A stretch of DNA of 64,000 bases. Source: Natrinema sp. SYSU A 869. GTDB lineage: Archaea > Halobacteriota > Halobacteria > Halobacteriales > Natrialbaceae. The DNA lies in NCBI RefSeq assembly GCF_019879105.1, contig NZ_CP082249.1, positions 682,001-746,000 on the forward strand, in the 5' to 3' direction. The position numbers were made by a program, and so were the translations under genes. This document shows positions 29,622-44,048 of the stretch, one piece after another. The notes under the pieces were generated by a model, which was given only the letters and a program-made list of their open reading frames with translations, made no database searches and was not told the DNA's origin. Position 1 is the stretch's first letter. The number at the start of each line of letters is the position of its first letter.

Positions 29622-30346
29622 AGATCGACGGCACTCGATCGCGTCGGCGGAGCCGAGTAGTTTGTCCGATGGGAGTAAGCGGAACCAACAGCAGGTACGG
29701 ACTGCCGTCGCCGTTCTGGGGACGCCTACACGGAATGGTCTCGTTTCTCCACAAAACAGTAGCACTCCTTTTTGCTTACATTCTGATTTGCGAACACGAA
29801 TGAGGGAGACACTGTGAACCGACGGACGCTACTGCGAGGGACCGCGGCGAGTGGTCTCGTACCTATCACATACAGCCGCGCCCGATCCCAGTCCGACGAG
29901 TCGGCGGCGGTCCGGATTGCGGACGCGTCCGGCCCGGTCGATTGTTCGTCGCTATCGGATCTGGGATTTCGTCTCCCGTCGGTCTGTCGCCGGTTTTTCC
30001 GGGCACTGCGATCGCCGCCGCGACTCCCATAGAAACGATGTATCGTCCGGACGCCTGAAGTTCGATCTGCGACGGACTAGTCGGGTCAGCCAATCATTCA
30101 CGGAGAAACACCATCCGCTGCTCGTGGAACGACTGCCCGCGGGGGCGGTAGGTGGTGGTTTCGAGTGCACCCCGCGGACAGTTACACGGGAACGATCCGT
30201 AATCATAAACCTACCCACATCGGCTCTCGACGCCTCCATCGACGCCCGACGCTGTTCAGTCGACGCGATCCCGCCGGTGCTCACGACTGAGCATGAGCTA
30301 CATCGCCATCCTCGCAGTCGTCTCTCGGAATAGCCGAATCGATTCT

Positions 30347-30407
30347 TACACTAATCGCGCGACTGCTTTGCGATCAGATGTGTACTGGCTATCAGTGGCG
30401 ACGATAG
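30347..30407. repeat. Degenerate copy of the nested palindromic element
   Basis: TACACTAATCGC pairs loosely with GCGATCAGATGTGTA, followed by CAGTGGCGACGATAG. The right half aligns with the better-preserved element at 30666-30749 (GCGATCAGCGTGT ... CAGTGGCTACTATA). It looks like an eroded relative about 300 bp away. Confidence 0.45.
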
Positions 30408-30444
30408 TTTCGGTTGATATGACAACTCAGCTATGAATACCTTT

Positions 30445-30456
30445 TAGTGATCACTA
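30445..30456. promoter_or_regulatory. 12-bp perfect palindrome before a small membrane-protein gene
   Basis: TAGTGATCACTA lies 15-26 nt before the ATG at 30471, overlapping or adjoining the TATA-like CTTTTAG. This is where a repressor would act on a leaderless promoter. No regulator is identified. Confidence 0.4.
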
Positions 30457-30470
30457 TCATATGGTAACGT

Positions 30471-30641
30471 ATGTCAAGCAAGGAGGGCGAGCGATTGATC
30501 ATCAGCGGGGAAGCGATGGGATCGAAACGACTCACACGCTTTTTACACTCGTTCGACTCACCCGAGCCGGTGGCTCTGGTGTTGATCGCATTGCTGCTGT
30601 TCGTCGTCGTTGTCACGGGGAATCTACTCGGGTTCTGGTGA
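30471..30641 (+). CDS. 56-aa single-helix membrane protein
   Basis: Begins MSSKEGERLIISGEAMGSKR, with a charged cytoplasmic part followed by one hydrophobic helix (PVALVLIALLLFVVVVTGNL, residues 32-51) and an aromatic end GFW. A TATA-like CTTTTAG lies about 27 nt upstream. Its coding character is better than the overlapping alternatives. Function unknown. Confidence 0.65.
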   Translation: MSSKEGERLIISGEAMGSKRLTRFLHSFDSPEPVALVLIALLLFVVVVTGNLLGFW

Positions 30642-30665
30642 GGACGTGGCGGCCGACCCGTGAAC

Positions 30666-30749
30666 TATAGTAGCTACTGAAAGTCACTACACACCTGATC
30701 GCATGACAGCTGTGCGATCAGCGTGTAAATCGTTTCAGTGGCTACTATA
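30666..30749. repeat. 84-bp nested palindromic element
   Basis: Outer arms TATAGTAGCTACTGAAA and TTTCAGTGGCTACTATA pair at 16 of 17 positions. An inner arm ACACCTGATCGCA (30691-30703) pairs with TGCGATCAGCGTGT (30713-30726) around a 9-nt loop. The arms are joined by GTCACT on the left and AAATCG on the right. The same joining motifs occur in the element at 35100. Non-coding; possibly a mobile miniature element or an RNA structure. Confidence 0.8.
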
Positions 30750-31397
30750 TCCGCCGAGAACGACCACTCGAGACCGCCAGTGTCTCGGTCGGACTGCCTC
30801 GAATGCGGATGAACGGTTACAAACAGCAACGGACCCGATTACTGCCGATCGACACCAGATCGGGATCAGCGACGACCGACAGCAGCGATTCCGACCACTC
30901 ACCCAGCGTAACAACTAGCCAACAAGTTTATGACAACCAGGTACTACATAACTGATGGCGAGGAACTGATTCAGTCGTTGCCCCCCTGACAGAATCTGTC
31001 CATCCGAGACGGACGGTCCTCGCCCTCCGAGATCGGTCCAGCGCCAAGTCAATAGCCATATTGTCTTCCGATCTCGGATTCCACCCACCCCTGCCATCCC
31101 CATCACAGGGTTGGGACTTCAACACCGGCCTCTGGCCGGCGCTTCTCGAGCCGACAACTCGAATCAGCTATCAGGCCCTTACTGACCGATACGGTCGCGT
31201 GCGACGGACCATACCCACCTCGCTGCCGCACCCTATCGACTCCGACCTCGAGCGCGCTATACGCGTCCCGCACTCGAGTTCATCGAGCCGTCAGATATGA
31301 GCTGTCAGAGTATCCGTCTGTTCAGTCACCGCTAATGGTTGGTACAACCGTTAATTTATATACTATTAATACGATATCTGCCTATGGGGATATTCGA
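30750..31397. other. Gene-poor stretch, about 650 bp
   Basis: No convincing gene on either strand. Frames at 30915-31125 (minus) and 31061-31300 (plus) lack family resemblance or consistent codon use. The segment could hold remnants of a mobile element, but no inverted terminal repeats or transposase motifs were found. Confidence 0.4.
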
Positions 31398-31523
31398 ATG
31401 ACAGATCGATCTGGGGGCGGGAGGACGTATCCAAAAGGCCACTGTCAACAGTGTGGCGAGCCGTTACGGCTCAGCCCGTGTCTCAACTGCGGCTGGTCGA
31501 AACGCATGGACCGCAAACGGTAA
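31398..31523 (+). CDS. 41-aa zinc-finger protein
   Basis: Starts MTDRSGGGRTYPKGHCQQCGE. Two CxxC pairs (CQQC at residues 16-19, CLNC at 28-31) form a compact zinc ribbon, and the C-terminus is basic (WSKRMDRKR). The ATG at 31398 is chosen after a hydrophobic, non-coding-like leader from 31335. Role unknown; the basic tail might bind nucleic acid. Confidence 0.7.
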   Translation: MTDRSGGGRTYPKGHCQQCGEPLRLSPCLNCGWSKRMDRKR

Positions 31524-31664
31524 TCGGAGTCTGCCGTCCGCGACAGCGTCGTCCGCAGTCCATCGGTGATCGCCTGGGGGTACCCTGAGACTGGAGCCCC
31601 GGCCACGTCTCGCTGGCTGCGATCTCGAATGGCTGCTGCTCACGAATTTGTTCGCAGTAGCCAA

Positions 31665-31737
31665 GCCAGGGCGGGGATTTGAACCCCGGAAGTCTCGATT
31701 ACAAGTCGAGTGCATGAACCGCCCATGCTCCCCTGGC
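31665..31737 (-). tRNA. tRNA-Thr (anticodon UGU)
   Basis: A 73-nt cloverleaf on the minus strand. Acceptor stem GCCAGGG/CCCUGGC, D arm GCAU/AUGC, anticodon stem CUCGA/UCGAG around CUUGUAA (anticodon UGU), and T arm CGGGG-UUCAAAU-CCCCG. No CCA is encoded, and no intron is present. Confidence 0.93.
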
Positions 31738-31749
31738 GCAGTCTGTGGG

Positions 31750-32265
31750 TTAGCCGTCCTCCTTTGAATGTGTATCGTTTTCGTCCCGGTCTTCGAGTGA
31801 CCGACCCATCGTCACCCGAAACTCATCGTACCCCTTGCGACGGTAAAACTGTTGGGCGGATTCGTTATCGGCCATCACCTCGAGCAACATCGTGTCAGCG
31901 CCCCGCTGAACGAGTGAGTCCTCGGCTGCCTCGAGCAACGCCGTGCCGATCCCGCGGTTCCGATAGGCGGGCTCGACGTAGATATTCGAGAGCAGGCCGC
32001 GGGTGGTGTCGAGTTCGAGGGTGCCGCGTTCGATCGAGACCGAGGCGAAGCCGATGATCGCGCCGTCAAGGCGTGCGACGAGCAGGCCGTCGTTGACCAG
32101 GTAGGCCCCGAGCGTCTCTCGCATGGCCTCGCGGTTCGCCTCGGGGCGGACCGCCGAATCGTGTCGGCGCTGGTCAGTGGCGAGCCGGACCCAGAGCTCG
32201 GCGAGGGTGTCGAGATCGGCTCGAGACGCGGATTCAATCGTCGGCTGCGGGTCGTTGTGGGGCAT
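31750..32265 (-). CDS. GNAT-family N-acetyltransferase
   Basis: A 171-aa GCN5-related acetyltransferase. The acetyl-CoA-binding motif is YRNRGIGTALLEAAE (R/Q-x-x-G-x-G/A, ~108), preceded by LLSNIYVEPAY and followed by VMADNESAQQFYRRKGYDEF, the classical C-terminal element. The acceptor is unknown. The first 32 nt overlap the end of pgk, so the pair is likely co-transcribed. ATG at 32265. Confidence 0.92.
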   Translation of the reverse strand: MPHNDPQPTIESASRADLDTLAELWVRLATDQRRHDSAVRPEANREAMRETLGAYLVNDGLLVARLDGAIIGFASVSIERGTLELDTTRGLLSNIYVEPAYRNRGIGTALLEAAEDSLVQRGADTMLLEVMADNESAQQFYRRKGYDEFRVTMGRSLEDRDENDTHSKEDG

Positions 32266-38574: not shown

Positions 38575-38764
38575 CCCGGGGCTCGGACTCGAGCCCCGAC
38601 GATCAACCGGCCGTTCGGCGGTGCCGATCGAAATCACCACCCTGCCGACATCGTTCGTCGGACGGTCGGTTCGGAATTGGGGCCTCGAGTACAGCTCTTT
38701 TGAAGGCTATTTTGACTCTAAGTGGTTTAATTTAAACGCTTAATACTGTGATGTCGTGACAGGG

Positions 38765-38770
38765 TTTATA
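38765..38770 (+). promoter_or_regulatory. TATA-like box of the McrBC-like module
   Basis: TTTATA lies 28 nt before the ATG at 38799, in a markedly AT-rich stretch. The position fits a leaderless transcript for the whole three-ORF module. Confidence 0.5.
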
Positions 38771-38798
38771 GGTAGATACTGTCTCGATTTAGAAAATA

Positions 38799-39722
38799 AT
38801 GGGAATGGGACAATCAACGGATGATGGGGCAAACGATGATCCACCGACTGTCTATCAGGTTCCGATAAAGACGGAAGACGACGAGCCAATTCGGACTAAT
38901 TTCGAGCGAACTGTTGTTGAGGGAGTTCGCCGGGAACAACTCGAAGATCTCTGTGAAATCCCGCTTGAGCAGAAGATGCTCCGAGTATGGGGTAATCGAG
39001 AAGACAAACCAGCCGATACCGGTGATTATCTCTTATTTGCCGATCGGGATGGCCGCCATGGAGGCGACTATATGCTTCTTGCCCGTGTGGATTTTGCGAC
39101 GATTCTAGACGAGGAGACTGCAGCGGCGTTTACGGATACAATTGGATGGGGAGAGGTGACGGATGTCTCGTATCCTCACGTACTGTTTCTCGACCCTGTG
39201 TACGAGACGACCCTCGATCAGGAGGACTTTTGGGAGACACTTGGCTTCCGAGGGTGGCCGAACGACACGTTCAGCGGCATCAACTTTGATCGCGCCGGGT
39301 CGACATTCTTCACAGAGTATACTTCGGTCGACGGGTTCATCGAAGAAATTCAGGGTAACAAGATCTATCCGATCGAATCGGCCGACGAATATGAGACTCT
39401 CGAGGCAGCGATAGCCGATGTCCGAACTCGACTCGAAGACTCCGCAACAGAAACGTCGTGGCTCAAAACCCGTCTCGGTGAGGTACTCGTCGCAGAGTGG
39501 TCGACCGCTCTCACTGGATTCAAACCGTCTGGTACCGTTTCCTCGAGTACTGCCGCTACGTTCGATCAACTGCGAGGAATCTACGAGTCGATTGAGCCCG
39601 AACTCGAGACCATTGCCGACGAACTCGGCGTGGGTTCTCACCTCTCGTTTTCACCAGCGAAGATGCTCTTTCTCTGCTGGGTACGCATTTTCAGGAGGAG
39701 ATCGACGAAGGGGCTCCGTTGA
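38799..39722 (+). CDS. N-terminal part of McrB-like protein: PUA/EVE-like domain and helical linker
   Basis: 307 codons. Residues ~40-190 look like a PUA/EVE-type modified-base reader (LRVWGNREDKP, GDYLLFADRDGRHGGDYMLLARVDF, YPHVLFL), followed by a helical region (~190-285). From about residue 284 (after GVGSHLSF) the frame turns implausible, hydrophobic then Arg-rich, ending WVRIFRRRSTKGLR, while the +2 frame reads on as TSEDALSLLGTHFQEEIDEG into the next ORF. This is therefore probably the first third of one gene interrupted near 39650. AT-richer than neighbours, suggesting acquisition by transfer. Confidence 0.75.
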   Translation: MGMGQSTDDGANDDPPTVYQVPIKTEDDEPIRTNFERTVVEGVRREQLEDLCEIPLEQKMLRVWGNREDKPADTGDYLLFADRDGRHGGDYMLLARVDFATILDEETAAAFTDTIGWGEVTDVSYPHVLFLDPVYETTLDQEDFWETLGFRGWPNDTFSGINFDRAGSTFFTEYTSVDGFIEEIQGNKIYPIESADEYETLEAAIADVRTRLEDSATETSWLKTRLGEVLVAEWSTALTGFKPSGTVSSSTAATFDQLRGIYESIEPELETIADELGVGSHLSFSPAKMLFLCWVRIFRRRSTKGLR

Positions 39723-41452
39723 GCCAACCGCGGCTGAACAGTATTCTCCGCGACACCTACACCGCGGCCGATGAGAAAACAACCTCAGTACTCCCGTTGG
39801 CAGATGGGGGACATTCAGTAGTCTCTCACATTCGGACGGAATCGCCGACTGTGTACAAGTTCACGGCTCCGTGTGACTATTGGCTAACGAGTATCGAATA
39901 TAGCTCGGTGTCGTTCGGAGAAGAACATCGTGACCAGTGGGAAACCCTCTCGGAAGGCGACGTCGTTGTTCTCCATTCTCGTGCGGAGCCATCGGACGAG
40001 GCTCTCAGTCAACAGCCGAACGGCATACTCGGAGTCGGAATTCTCGGAAGTACGTTCGAGAAAGACGAACCGTGGTGGCGGGACGAACACGAACGTGGAG
40101 AGTCGTATCCGCTGATCGCGACGTTCGATCAGCTCTTCCTCACCGGTTCGATCGACGATATCGATACGCCTCGATCGATCACCGAAAAAACGCCATCGGA
40201 AATCGACCGAGAGTCCGCTGCACTGACCACGGATCTCCTCCCGATTACACGAGCCAACAGTATCTGTAACGATGTGGCTGATACCGAATTCCCGGTCCAG
40301 TCACTGCACGCGATCTTTCGAACTGACGACGGTGCAATCGATTACGAACGGCCAGTGGCGCTCATCGATGCGATTGCGGACGAATTGAAAGCAGTTCCGA
40401 CGGTCAACGTTCACAAATCGTATCAAGGATCGATTCAGACCGACCCACTCGACGGTCTCTACTTTCCAGGCGATCAGGGAGAGCGGATTCTCGAGCAGAT
40501 CACGACAGCCCTGCAATCCGGCAAACATGTCCTCCTGACTGGACCGCCAGGAACCGGGAAGACGGAGATCGCCCGTCGAGTCTGCACCTCACTTGCGAAA
40601 AGTCATCCATATCTCTACTCTGATTTCGAAATGACGACGGCGACTGCTGACTGGTCGACGTTCGATACGGTCGGCGGATACATGCCAAACGAATCCGAAA
40701 CCAGCGGTGACGACCTTGCGTTCACACCGGGGATCGTCCTCAATCGCCTCAAAAACAACCAGACGGATGCTCAGTCGAACGAGTTACTCATCATCGATGA
40801 ACTGAATCGTGCCGACATTGACAAAGCGTTCGGCCAGCTTTTCACAGTCCTCTCGGGGCAGTCGGTTCAGCTTCCGTATACGAAAAACGGCCGTGAGATC
40901 GAGGTGACGACGATCAACGACAGTTCCGGTTCCCTGGCAGACCACCAGTATCTCGTTCCGAATTCGTGGCGGATCTTCGCGACGATGAACACCTACGACA
41001 AGACATCGCTCTACGAGATGAGTTACGCGTTTATGCGTCGGTTCGCATTTATCCGCGTTCCTGCCCCTGAACTTCCCGAGGACCGAGCAGACGAAGAACA
41101 GTTAGAGGAGATGGTCTACGATTACGCGGATGCGTGGGGCCTCAATCTCAATCGCCCCGAAGCGATGGCTATCGGTCGCGTCTGGCGGGAGACGAACAAC
41201 GCAGTGGAGGAACGGGCGATCGGTCCTGCGATCATCGAGGATATCCTCCGATACATCAATCAGCATCCCGAAGACGAACTCGAGTATCATCTCACGCAAG
41301 CAGTCATCAGCTACGTGTTCCCACAACTCGAGGGCGTTCCGAAGCGTCGAAAGATCGTTCAAGAGATAGCCGCTGTCGGAGAAATCGACGAAGCGCTGCT
41401 CGAACGTGCGGCACGAGAGATGCTTCAGGTGAGCGTTGTAGAGAATGAATAA
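39719..41452 (+). CDS. McrB-like AAA+ NTPase
   Basis: 577 codons from a TTG at 39719, but the true start is probably 38799 through a frameshift. Residues ~40-170 form a second PUA/EVE-like domain (VYKFTAPCDYWLTSIEY ... EGDVVVLHSRAEP). The AAA+ domain has Walker A GPPGTGKT (~275), Walker B LLIIDELNRADIDKAFGQ (~356) and sensor 1 FATMNTYD, the McrB-type hallmark, plus a later RRFAFI. McrB proteins use GTP or ATP to translocate DNA and drive a nuclease partner. It overlaps the nuclease gene by 8 nt. Confidence 0.88.
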   Translation: MSQPRLNSILRDTYTAADEKTTSVLPLADGGHSVVSHIRTESPTVYKFTAPCDYWLTSIEYSSVSFGEEHRDQWETLSEGDVVVLHSRAEPSDEALSQQPNGILGVGILGSTFEKDEPWWRDEHERGESYPLIATFDQLFLTGSIDDIDTPRSITEKTPSEIDRESAALTTDLLPITRANSICNDVADTEFPVQSLHAIFRTDDGAIDYERPVALIDAIADELKAVPTVNVHKSYQGSIQTDPLDGLYFPGDQGERILEQITTALQSGKHVLLTGPPGTGKTEIARRVCTSLAKSHPYLYSDFEMTTATADWSTFDTVGGYMPNESETSGDDLAFTPGIVLNRLKNNQTDAQSNELLIIDELNRADIDKAFGQLFTVLSGQSVQLPYTKNGREIEVTTINDSSGSLADHQYLVPNSWRIFATMNTYDKTSLYEMSYAFMRRFAFIRVPAPELPEDRADEEQLEEMVYDYADAWGLNLNRPEAMAIGRVWRETNNAVEERAIGPAIIEDILRYINQHPEDELEYHLTQAVISYVFPQLEGVPKRRKIVQEIAAVGEIDEALLERAAREMLQVSVVENE

Positions 41453-42791
41453 GGACGAACTCCTCGATCAGCTTACCGAGGATATCCTCGCTTACGTGAT
41501 GCGAGGGTCATTCCCGGAGCGCGAACTGGCGCAATCGATCAAACCGGACCAACTTGACGAACGGTTCGAGGAGTACGAACTGCTCCTTGATCTTCACTTC
41601 GTTCTCAAATCGGATGTCGTATCGTTCGTCAGAGAGCTTTCGAAACATCTGCGGAACATCCGTACGGAAACGCAAACGGTGTCACGGACACGGCGTGGTG
41701 CCGTTGACGGACGAATCAACTGGGGAGCGACCATCAAAAAACGCTATTCCGAACATCCCCGAGATAGGTCGGTCTTCGTCTGTGACAACCGGTCGATAGA
41801 CTACGATATTCCCGAGAATATCGTCCTTAAACGGTTGATCTCGATCATTCACACGACGATCCGAGAGGCCGAGGAGTATCTCCGGGGCGAGTACGAGTGG
41901 GTTCAGGAGACTTGGAAAGGTAACGAGAACCTCATCGACGAGTTGCAACGAATCGTCGAGCGAAACGTCCACGTTCGTCGCATTCGCGACCCAGACACGT
42001 ACGAGCCGACCGAGCGGATGCTCACGACTGCCGCTAACTCGCGACAGGAGGTATACCGCGAGGCTGCGTCCCTTCTCAAATCTCGAGAGCGGTTGTTCGA
42101 GGGAGACGCGGACGAAATCAGGGCGTTGCTCGAGGAAACGGCAATCGCACCTGATGATCAAGACTCGCTCTTCGAACTCTTCGTTCTCTTTCGGTTCGTC
42201 GCGACGCTCGAACGGCTACAAGAGAGTCAACCGGAATTCAAAACGATCGCAACGGGTCGACAAGAGGTGGCTCGATTCGATGGTGACAAGGAAATTGCAC
42301 TCTATCACGATAACTCCGCGTCTGATCGGAATCTATCGTTCGTTGCAGTTCCCGATGAAGAGCAGGAGCAACTCTCACGGACCGACGAAGTTCAGCTCAC
42401 GGCACAAGATATCGCGAGCGATTACTTCGACCGAGAATTTCGAAATCACACAGGTCGCCCCGACGTAATCGTCCTCGAGATTATCTCTGAATCCGAGGAT
42501 CAGCACGAGTATCTGATTGTAGAAGTGAAAAACAGTACCAACACGGACACGATCCGCCGCGGAATCAAGGAAACGCTGGAATATCTCGCGTTTCTCCGGG
42601 TCAATGAGGATTACGTCTTCGGTCGTGATGATGAGAATTACTTCGGGTCTGGCTGGAACGGACTTCTAGTCGTTCAGGATCTCAACGACGAGACCGCTTC
42701 GTTCGAGGCGCAATCCGACAATCCAGTCACGATCCTCCAAGCAGCAGAGTTAGAAAAGCAGTTAGCCGCCATGTTACGCGAAATTCTATAG
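41445..42791 (+). CDS. McrC-like PD-(D/E)XK nuclease partner
   Basis: A 448-aa protein. The N-terminal and middle parts are helical and charged, resembling McrC/DUF2357-type partners. The C-terminal nuclease core shows RPDVIVLEI (metal Asp), YLIVEVKNS (the ExK motif, ~365) and a following helix with RRGIKETLEYLAFLR. It overlaps the AAA+ gene by 8 nt. Known McrBC systems cut DNA carrying modified cytosines; here the reader domains differ, so the target is open. Lower GC than the flanks. Confidence 0.82.
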   Translation: MNKDELLDQLTEDILAYVMRGSFPERELAQSIKPDQLDERFEEYELLLDLHFVLKSDVVSFVRELSKHLRNIRTETQTVSRTRRGAVDGRINWGATIKKRYSEHPRDRSVFVCDNRSIDYDIPENIVLKRLISIIHTTIREAEEYLRGEYEWVQETWKGNENLIDELQRIVERNVHVRRIRDPDTYEPTERMLTTAANSRQEVYREAASLLKSRERLFEGDADEIRALLEETAIAPDDQDSLFELFVLFRFVATLERLQESQPEFKTIATGRQEVARFDGDKEIALYHDNSASDRNLSFVAVPDEEQEQLSRTDEVQLTAQDIASDYFDREFRNHTGRPDVIVLEIISESEDQHEYLIVEVKNSTNTDTIRRGIKETLEYLAFLRVNEDYVFGRDDENYFGSGWNGLLVVQDLNDETASFEAQSDNPVTILQAAELEKQLAAMLREIL

Positions 42792-42875
42792 ACTCACTTG
42801 AAGTTCTGGATCAGTCTGTTCGACGGAGTGTACCGTCGTCGAACGCGAACGGTAGTGAATGCGAAAATGTAGCTC

Positions 42876-44048
42876 TCAGTCGTCGGCCGTCGTCTCTGCT
42901 TCCTCGTCCAGAATCTCCTCGCGGTGTTCATCCAGCAGCGGCGCGCGACCGCGGGGCTTCGGTTCGGTCTCGCTCATCTTGATCGGGTTGCCCGCGATCT
43001 CGACGTCTCTGTCGGCACCGGGCTGTTCGACCGGCACGAGCATGTCCCGGGCGCGGACGTGGTCGTCTTCGAAGATCTCTTCGGTGGTCTGGACGGGCGC
43101 GGCTGGGACCCGGCCCTCGAGGCTTCCGACGAGTTCGTCGTTCGTCAACTCGATCGCCCAGTCGGCCAGTTCCTCGCGAAGCGCCGCGCGGTTCTCGAGG
43201 CGCTCTGCAGTTGTGGGGTACGACTCGGCGAGGTCCTCGCGGTCCATCACGGCACAGAGTTCGGCCCAGTGGTTGTTGTTGAACGCGGCGATGACGGCGT
43301 AGCCGTCGGCGGTCTCGAAGGCGTTGTAGGGAAACAGCGTCGGGTGGGAGTTGCCCCGGCGGGTGGGAGCCTCGCCGGTGTAGGACTGCTGGTAGACGGC
43401 TCGTTCGGTGAAGCTGAGCATCGAGTCGTACATGGCGGTGTCGACGTACTGGCCCTCACCGGTCTGTTCGCGGTGGTTGACCGCTGCCAGAATCCCGATG
43501 CAGTTCAGCGTCGCGGTGAAGAGGTCGCCGACGCCGGGGCCGGTCTTGGTCGGCGGGCCGTCGGGCTGGCCGGTGGTCTCCATGACGCCGCCGAGTGCCT
43601 GCGCGATGAGGTCGAAGGAGGGCTGGCCCTGCCGATCTGTTTCACCCGTTCGCGGATCGCCGAAGCCCCGAATCGAGGAGTAGATGATCTCCGGATTGTA
43701 CTCTGTAAGCGTCTCGTAGCCTAGATCGTACTTCTCCATCGTCCCCGAGCGGTAGTTCTCGACGACGATGTCGGCCTCCTCGACCAGTGAGAGGAAGTCC
43801 GCGCGGTCCTCGTCGTCGCCGAGGTTTAGCTCGATGCTGCGCTTACCGCGGTTGACGCTCTGGAAGTAGCCGCCGTAGGCTTCCGCCTCGGGGTCGTCGA
43901 CGAACGGCGGGTTCGACCGGATCATGTCGCCGCCCGGCCGCTCGATTTTGACCACGTCTGCGCCCATGTCCGCGAGCAACATCGTGCAATACGGCCCAGC
44001 CAGCACCTGGGTCAGATCCAGCACGCGAAGGTTCGAGAGTGCACCCAT
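42876..44048 (-). CDS. mct: Succinyl-CoA:mesaconate CoA-transferase (class III CoA-transferase)
   Basis: A 390-aa CaiB/BaiF-family enzyme. N-terminal RVLDLTQVLAGPYCTMLLAD and KIERPGGDMIR are family hallmarks; the catalytic Asp is in DTAMYDSMLSFTER. Placed beside the other methylaspartate-cycle genes, it most likely activates mesaconate with CoA from succinyl-CoA. It is transcribed away from glmS, so the cycle is encoded on two divergent units with a 179-bp shared promoter region. ATG at 44048. Confidence 0.92.
   Translation of the reverse strand: MGALSNLRVLDLTQVLAGPYCTMLLADMGADVVKIERPGGDMIRSNPPFVDDPEAEAYGGYFQSVNRGKRSIELNLGDDEDRADFLSLVEEADIVVENYRSGTMEKYDLGYETLTEYNPEIIYSSIRGFGDPRTGETDRQGQPSFDLIAQALGGVMETTGQPDGPPTKTGPGVGDLFTATLNCIGILAAVNHREQTGEGQYVDTAMYDSMLSFTERAVYQQSYTGEAPTRRGNSHPTLFPYNAFETADGYAVIAAFNNNHWAELCAVMDREDLAESYPTTAERLENRAALREELADWAIELTNDELVGSLEGRVPAAPVQTTEEIFEDDHVRARDMLVPVEQPGADRDVEIAGNPIKMSETEPKPRGRAPLLDEHREEILDEEAETTADD

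Follow-up and report, generated by a model that had tools for sequence, protein, structure and literature searches.

The window analysed here, 64,000 nucleotides of Natrinema sp. SYSU A 869 (contig NZ_CP082249.1, positions 682,001 to 746,000; a genome of 5.67 Mb in 3 contigs), carries a two-gene cassette beside mct, a gene of the methylaspartate cycle. The cassette is probably an McrBC-type (Type IV, modification-dependent) restriction system, from a haloarchaeal branch in which readers of modified bases are stacked on McrB. It consists of mcrB and mcrC only, and there is no methyltransferase gene between the flanks (Table 1).

The features by which McrBC systems are recognised were found together. 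The mcrB and mcrC genes are adjacent and run in one direction. The McrB-type AAA+ motor has Walker A, Walker B and NxxD motifs, and the McrC partner combines a DUF2357-like part with a PD-(D/E)XK nuclease. The predicted N-terminal modified-base reader is reader 1, by its homology to the reader of Thermococcus gammatolerans McrB (TgMcrB). Open frames were located at 38799-39722, 39719-41452 and 41445-42791, and the motifs GPPGTGKT, LLIIDELNRAD, MNTYD and RPD...ExK are present in their translations. An earlier interpretation made without database searches (the sequence-only reading) had proposed an McrBC-like module with PUA/EVE-like readers and a PD-(D/E)XK partner in a transferable defence cassette, and our analysis supports this. 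Its division into three separate frames did not hold, as the first two are one frameshifted gene that is open across the junction in relatives.

Motor, nuclease and stacked readers

The C-terminal part of McrB matched E. coli McrB structures (6ut6, E 1.6e-16; 6hz4, E 3.6e-15) as well as TgMcrB, and matched AAA_5 in Pfam (E 1.3e-16). Walker A, Walker B and NxxD are invariant across 34 aligned homologues. The signature motif is NTYD in the window and NTYD, NAYD or NSYD among homologues, i.e. NxxD, and the motor therefore stands apart from the NxD clade, to which the CoCoNuTs belong (PMC11090510).

The nuclease partner was not named by sequence libraries, including Pfam and PADLOC, and its profile had no match in the PDB by sequence; only the fold search found McrC. 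The four best PDB matches of its AlphaFold2 model (mean pLDDT, the predicted local distance difference test score, 78) are all McrC (6hz4_M, 6ut6_G, 6ut7_G and 6ut5_G), and because they agree, the model identifies 41445-42791 as McrC. None of the residues D340, E360 and K362 varies among 42 homologues, which include bacterial proteins and range down to 25% identity. Pfam DUF2357 was matched weakly, in one homologue.

Eighty homologous loci were fetched. All 80 have a motor homologue and, after it in the same direction, a nuclease homologue; the N-terminal part varies. This constant order, together with differences that fall mainly at third codon positions, places the gene arrangement far beyond chance.

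The readers were modelled on the N. versiforme protein, over its first 559 residues (pLDDT 82); the model has two alpha/beta domains with a helical bundle between them. Foldseek matched it to members of the PUA superfamily, namely the N-terminal domain of TgMcrB, PH1033, MJECL36, THYN1, and YTH and ASCH domains; these matches belong to the two-reader model and are not assigned to either half. Since the Foldseek output gives no half per match, the halves were compared separately by sequence. Reader 1 matched the TgMcrB reader 6p0f at E 2.7e-8 over about 145 residues in a profile search, using an alignment that includes single-reader proteins of Halapricum and relatives, and its invariant Trp and Phe columns are common to TgMcrB. 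By sequence comparison, reader 1 is thus homologous to the YTH-type reader domain of TgMcrB. Two sources (PMC7641849, PMC7897488) report that the TgMcrB reader binds N6-methyladenine. Reader 1 may by analogy do the same and, because of its kinship to TgMcrB, would be the better N6-methyladenine candidate of the two readers.

Reader 2, modelled with pLDDT above 90, is probably a PUA/EVE/YTH-like domain by its fold and by weak sequence evidence. In all-against-all profile comparisons of ten sets it gave P values of 3e-4 against TgMcrB and 2e-3 against reader 1, while comparisons between unrelated domains gave 0.015 or higher. Of the two reader-like domains in the sequence-only reading, the first is thereby shown by homology and the second is probable, on fold search and profile comparisons. 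Two other matches were discarded: influenza HA2 hits of the N-terminal profile (E about 5e-4) lay on the helical linker, were absent from domain-wise searches and are taken to reflect chance helix similarity, and a HalX match of the first frame (E 0.015) was below the Pfam cut-off.

Reader 1 occurs alone in L033-L035 and reader 2 alone in L027, and L001-L005 have both. In L010 (Pfam) and in L006, L008, L009, L011 and L013 (alignment) both readers are preceded by a winged-helix part whose SRA-like match is weak; MrcB_N takes this place in L014, L016 and L018 (Pfam) and in L017 and L019 (alignment). MTaX1 is joined to reader 2 in L020 (Pfam) and in L021 and L023 (alignment). The readers are modular, since each also occurs alone. 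A motor with two readers had been thought unusual in a haloarchaeon; two or three readers are in fact common in this branch of McrB. Stacked interchangeable readers form a natural series (reader 1; reader 2; both; both with MrcB_N or an SRA-like part) in which the effect of a second reader can be studied.

The branch is widespread in haloarchaea yet missed by routine annotation. Outside Natrinema the system is located elsewhere, including 22 plasmid records, in which McrC is annotated as a hypothetical protein and McrB as an AAA or MoxR ATPase. In a phage collection there was one distant, motor-only match.

Some of these loci have further genes of interest nearby. In Halogranum amylolyticum (L019:286-4470) the stacked-reader McrBC has another McrBC pair immediately upstream of it; this second pair is canonical, with an McrB-like protein of 970 residues and a partner that matches PF10117 (E 5e-55). 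In Haloferax larsenii (L021:11110-17715) the MTaX1-bearing McrBC adjoins a D12-class N6-adenine methyltransferase and HmaB/HmaC-like proteins, and L020 and L023 have genes of a size similar to these neighbours.

Table 1. Features of the cassette in the window (window coordinates).
Feature	Position	Strand	Remarks
McrBC cassette (promoter, mcrB, mcrC)	38748..42876, borders approximate	.	between histidine-kinase gene and mct
TATA-box-like TTTATA	38765..38770	+	29-34 bases before start codon; conserved in seven carriers
mcrB-like gene, split by frameshift	38799..41452	+	one frame of 883-892 codons in relatives
Reader 1, YTH/EVE-like (PUA superfamily)	38844..39368	+	6p0f profile E 2.7e-8; Trp/Phe columns; fold search
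Helical linker bundle between readers, spanning the frameshift	39372..39770	+	model of relative L001
One-base deletion site relative to five relatives	39689..39690	+	alignment
Reader 2, probable PUA/EVE/YTH-like domain	39812..40309	+	two-reader model fold matches; profile comparisons
McrB-type AAA+ motor: GPPGTGKT, LLIIDE, NTYD, RRF	40470..41449	+	6ut6, AAA_5, homologue alignment
mcrC: N-terminal DUF2357-like part and C-terminal PD-(D/E)XK nuclease (D340, E360, K362)	41445..42791	+	fold search; invariant residues

Predicted action and relation to known systems

Like T. gammatolerans McrBC (6p0f, 6ut5, 6ut7), the system has an McrB motor, an McrC fold and, in reader 1, a homologue of the YTH-type N-terminal domain. 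T. gammatolerans has one reader, whereas the window protein has two and a helical linker, and relatives have a third. With E. coli K-12 McrBC it shares the NxxD AAA+ motor, the PD-(D/E)XK McrC and the mcrB-mcrC order. The E. coli reader, MrcB_N (DUF3578), is absent from the window protein and is an extra N-terminal part in some relatives, and the E. coli McrC family PF10117 did not match the window nuclease. Like the EVE-McrB proteins of Bell et al. 2020 (PMC7641849), the window protein fuses a PUA-superfamily reader to an McrB motor. According to that survey additional domains are common in such proteins; in its available text we found no description of stacked readers in this architecture or of the nuclease subfamily. 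LlaJI-type restriction-modification systems with an McrB/McrC-like nuclease have methyltransferase genes in the cassette, unlike the window cassette. The component parts are thus of known kinds. Their combination and the history of the slot were not found in the literature searched, of which coverage was partial; these proteins may be listed in supplementary tables of the McrBC census.

If the system acts as known McrBC systems do, its readers would flip out and bind modified bases, and McrB hexamers would assemble with McrC. McrB and McrC would then move along DNA through nucleotide hydrolysis and cleave near the marks; in systems of this type cleavage depends on both GTP and modification. 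The expected target is foreign DNA with chemical marks. The double reader would most likely widen the range of marks, either reader sufficing (an OR gate). This arrangement is favoured because there are sibling systems in which one or the other of them is the sole recognised reader; it is the least certain step, and we give it about even chances. Alternatively, both readers might have to engage marks (an AND gate), so that only doubly marked DNA, or DNA with marks at a set spacing, would be cut and methylated host DNA would be spared. Several carriers also encode putative adenine methyltransferases, which would fit such a gate, and some safeguard or motif specificity is needed for that reason. 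We consider the AND gate unlikely, as L027 and L033-L035 each have a single recognised reader, of one type or the other.

RNA could also be the target, as in the proposed CoCoNuT systems. These share McrB and McrC homologues with the cassette, and some of them have YTH-like domains (PMC11090510); RNA binding is possible for YTH and EVE domains. However, the motor carries NxxD and not the NxD of CoCoNuTs, their coiled coils and RNA-related domains were not recognised in the window cassette (HEPN, cold-shock and Hsp70 parts included), and the PD-(D/E)XK motif is complete. RNA targeting is accordingly very improbable.

Several points weigh against a modification-dependent restriction system with two readers, the activity of which is predicted from sequence and models. 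Reader 2 alone had no significant sequence match in a PDB search (E 0.58). Whole-chain TM-scores between the McrC model and known McrC are low, about 0.2, which we put down to the parts being arranged differently. Reader 1 cannot simply act on all N6-methyladenine, because McrBC-bearing relatives include genomes with adenine methyltransferases.

Exchange of restriction systems beside mct

We surveyed 29 Natrinema genomes, the window genome included, and found mct beside the site in all of them. McrBC lies beside mct in 8 genomes (among them the window), a large Type IIG restriction-methyltransferase in 6 and neither in 15. McrC is carried by nine of the 29; the ninth, G391, has it elsewhere. 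The empty site is seen in G322, where the left flank runs to the position of 38604 and the right flank from that of 42876, with 27 bases between them. In G004 a Type IIG cassette occupies the interval that matches the McrBC of the window, and its protein matches Eco57I (4.6e-38), parts of MmeI and TaqI_C. Of five Type IIG copies examined in the slot, four have NPPY and the fifth NPPW.

Remnants of Type IIG genes border mcrBC directly on the left in G193, on the right in G395 and on both sides in G397, where the left piece has only 64 bases; G143 has a Type IIG scar without mcrBC. On the tree of flanking genes, McrBC presence requires at least 4 changes (6 on the best tree). G107 and G193 are 96.1% identical in mct and 77.6% in mcrC, so their cassettes have separate histories. 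G144 and the window genome (G000) are 92.9% identical in mct and 92.7% in mcrC, which fits vertical descent. AT-richness is common to the two kinds of cassette (G+C 0.53-0.57 against 0.64-0.69). It had been noted for the window cassette, and the values found there are 0.53 against 0.64 in the flanks. Taken together, the empty site, the Type IIG occupancy, the remnants, the tree changes, the separate histories and the AT-richness identify the slot as a site at which restriction systems are exchanged, probably by recombination in the flanks. There were no convincing repeats at the cassette borders, and as to an attachment site, the sole tRNA gene within 30-50 kb is tRNA-Thr, 7 kb away.

The sequences of carriers become similar from about 38748 onward. 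The promoter ascribed to the cassette was found as a promoter-like TTTATA 5' of the ATG. All seven aligned carriers keep it, despite a lack of conservation farther upstream.

A chromosomal housekeeping role instead of defence must be considered at this site, since the cassette adjoins methylaspartate-cycle genes in Natrinema, and McrBC deletion slowed the growth of Thermococcus kodakarensis (PMC13385129). The sequence-only reading had asked whether homologues lie only beside housekeeping genes. They do adjoin mct in 8 of the 9 Natrinema carriers; the site is however a swap slot, and other genera have the system elsewhere or on plasmids. Presence in 9 of 29 Natrinema is patchy, the cassette swaps with a Type IIG restriction enzyme, cassettes of sister species have separate histories, and there are plasmid copies. 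We therefore regard a housekeeping role as highly unlikely.

In the slot, a system whose reader resembles that of TgMcrB takes the place of an adenine methyltransferase, which suggests a conflict between the two. It might be a writer/reader switch: because of the conflict, a lineage would keep either a Type IIG enzyme that methylates adenine or an McrBC with a reader 1 that attacks N6-methyladenine, with McrBC replacing the inside of the writer gene. The Type IIG remnants flanking mcrBC in G193, G397 and G395 are a point for this reading, which we nevertheless consider unlikely. A general exclusion of writer and reader was not supported genome-wide within Natrinema: further Type IIG-family homologues occur in 7 of the 9 McrC carriers, and 15 of the 20 non-carriers have any. 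Among the carriers, G164 and G397 gave strong matches to N6_Mtase; G000 and G144 lack both these and Type IIG-family homologues elsewhere. A motif-specific conflict is possible. With close relatives holding either Type IIG or McrBC, the Natrinema slot offers a direct route to the conflict between marking DNA and attacking the marks.

Two observations concern the surroundings. A second AT-rich stretch (G+C 0.55-0.59) at 30001-32000 of the window adjoins the tRNA-Thr gene (31664-31737). In two Natrinema relatives (L147:8875-10075, L180:11167-12358) a nucleotidyltransferase-fold protein and a partner of 171-174 residues lie between mcrC and mct; they may form an MNT/HEPN-type toxin-antitoxin pair, the HEPN part being a guess.

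A one-base gap in the window copy

Once the two frames are joined, mcrB of the window has about 884 codons. Seven Natrinema relatives have the cassette at the mct site, and the six with mcrB read over its whole length show an open frame of 883-892 codons. Near 39689 the window is one base short of all five aligned relatives, which read through in frame. Because the frame continues across the junction in relatives and this base is missing from the window, 38799-41452 is a single mcrB-like gene. The gap is the only frame-disrupting indel within the coding part across a 9-kb comparison with G144, the nearest relative. Most differences from G144 in the two halves of mcrB (63 of 100 and 80 of 113) are at third codon positions, so either selection acted on the protein until recently or the gap reflects a sequencing error. 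Programmed frameshifting was rejected, as the break is not conserved in any relative.

Alongside the McrBC interpretation, and not instead of it, the two-frame layout may be functionally meaningless, the window copy being a decaying pseudogene or the gap an assembly error. The deletion is absent from every relative, and L022, L029 and L034 also have broken copies; this reading concerns the window copy only, since the codon-position bias persists past the break and relatives are intact. We lean somewhat towards a real break. Unless it is a sequencing error, the deletion has probably left the window system without activity or with a one-reader product only.

At 39692-39721 the stop of the first frame overlaps a TTG (TTGA), at which the second frame could possibly restart. 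The product would retain reader 2, the motor and the McrC partner, and would resemble the natural one-reader protein of L027. The other interrupted copies have reader 1 in a separate frame (L022), a split mcrB (L029) and a split mcrC (L034), so inactivation may recur.

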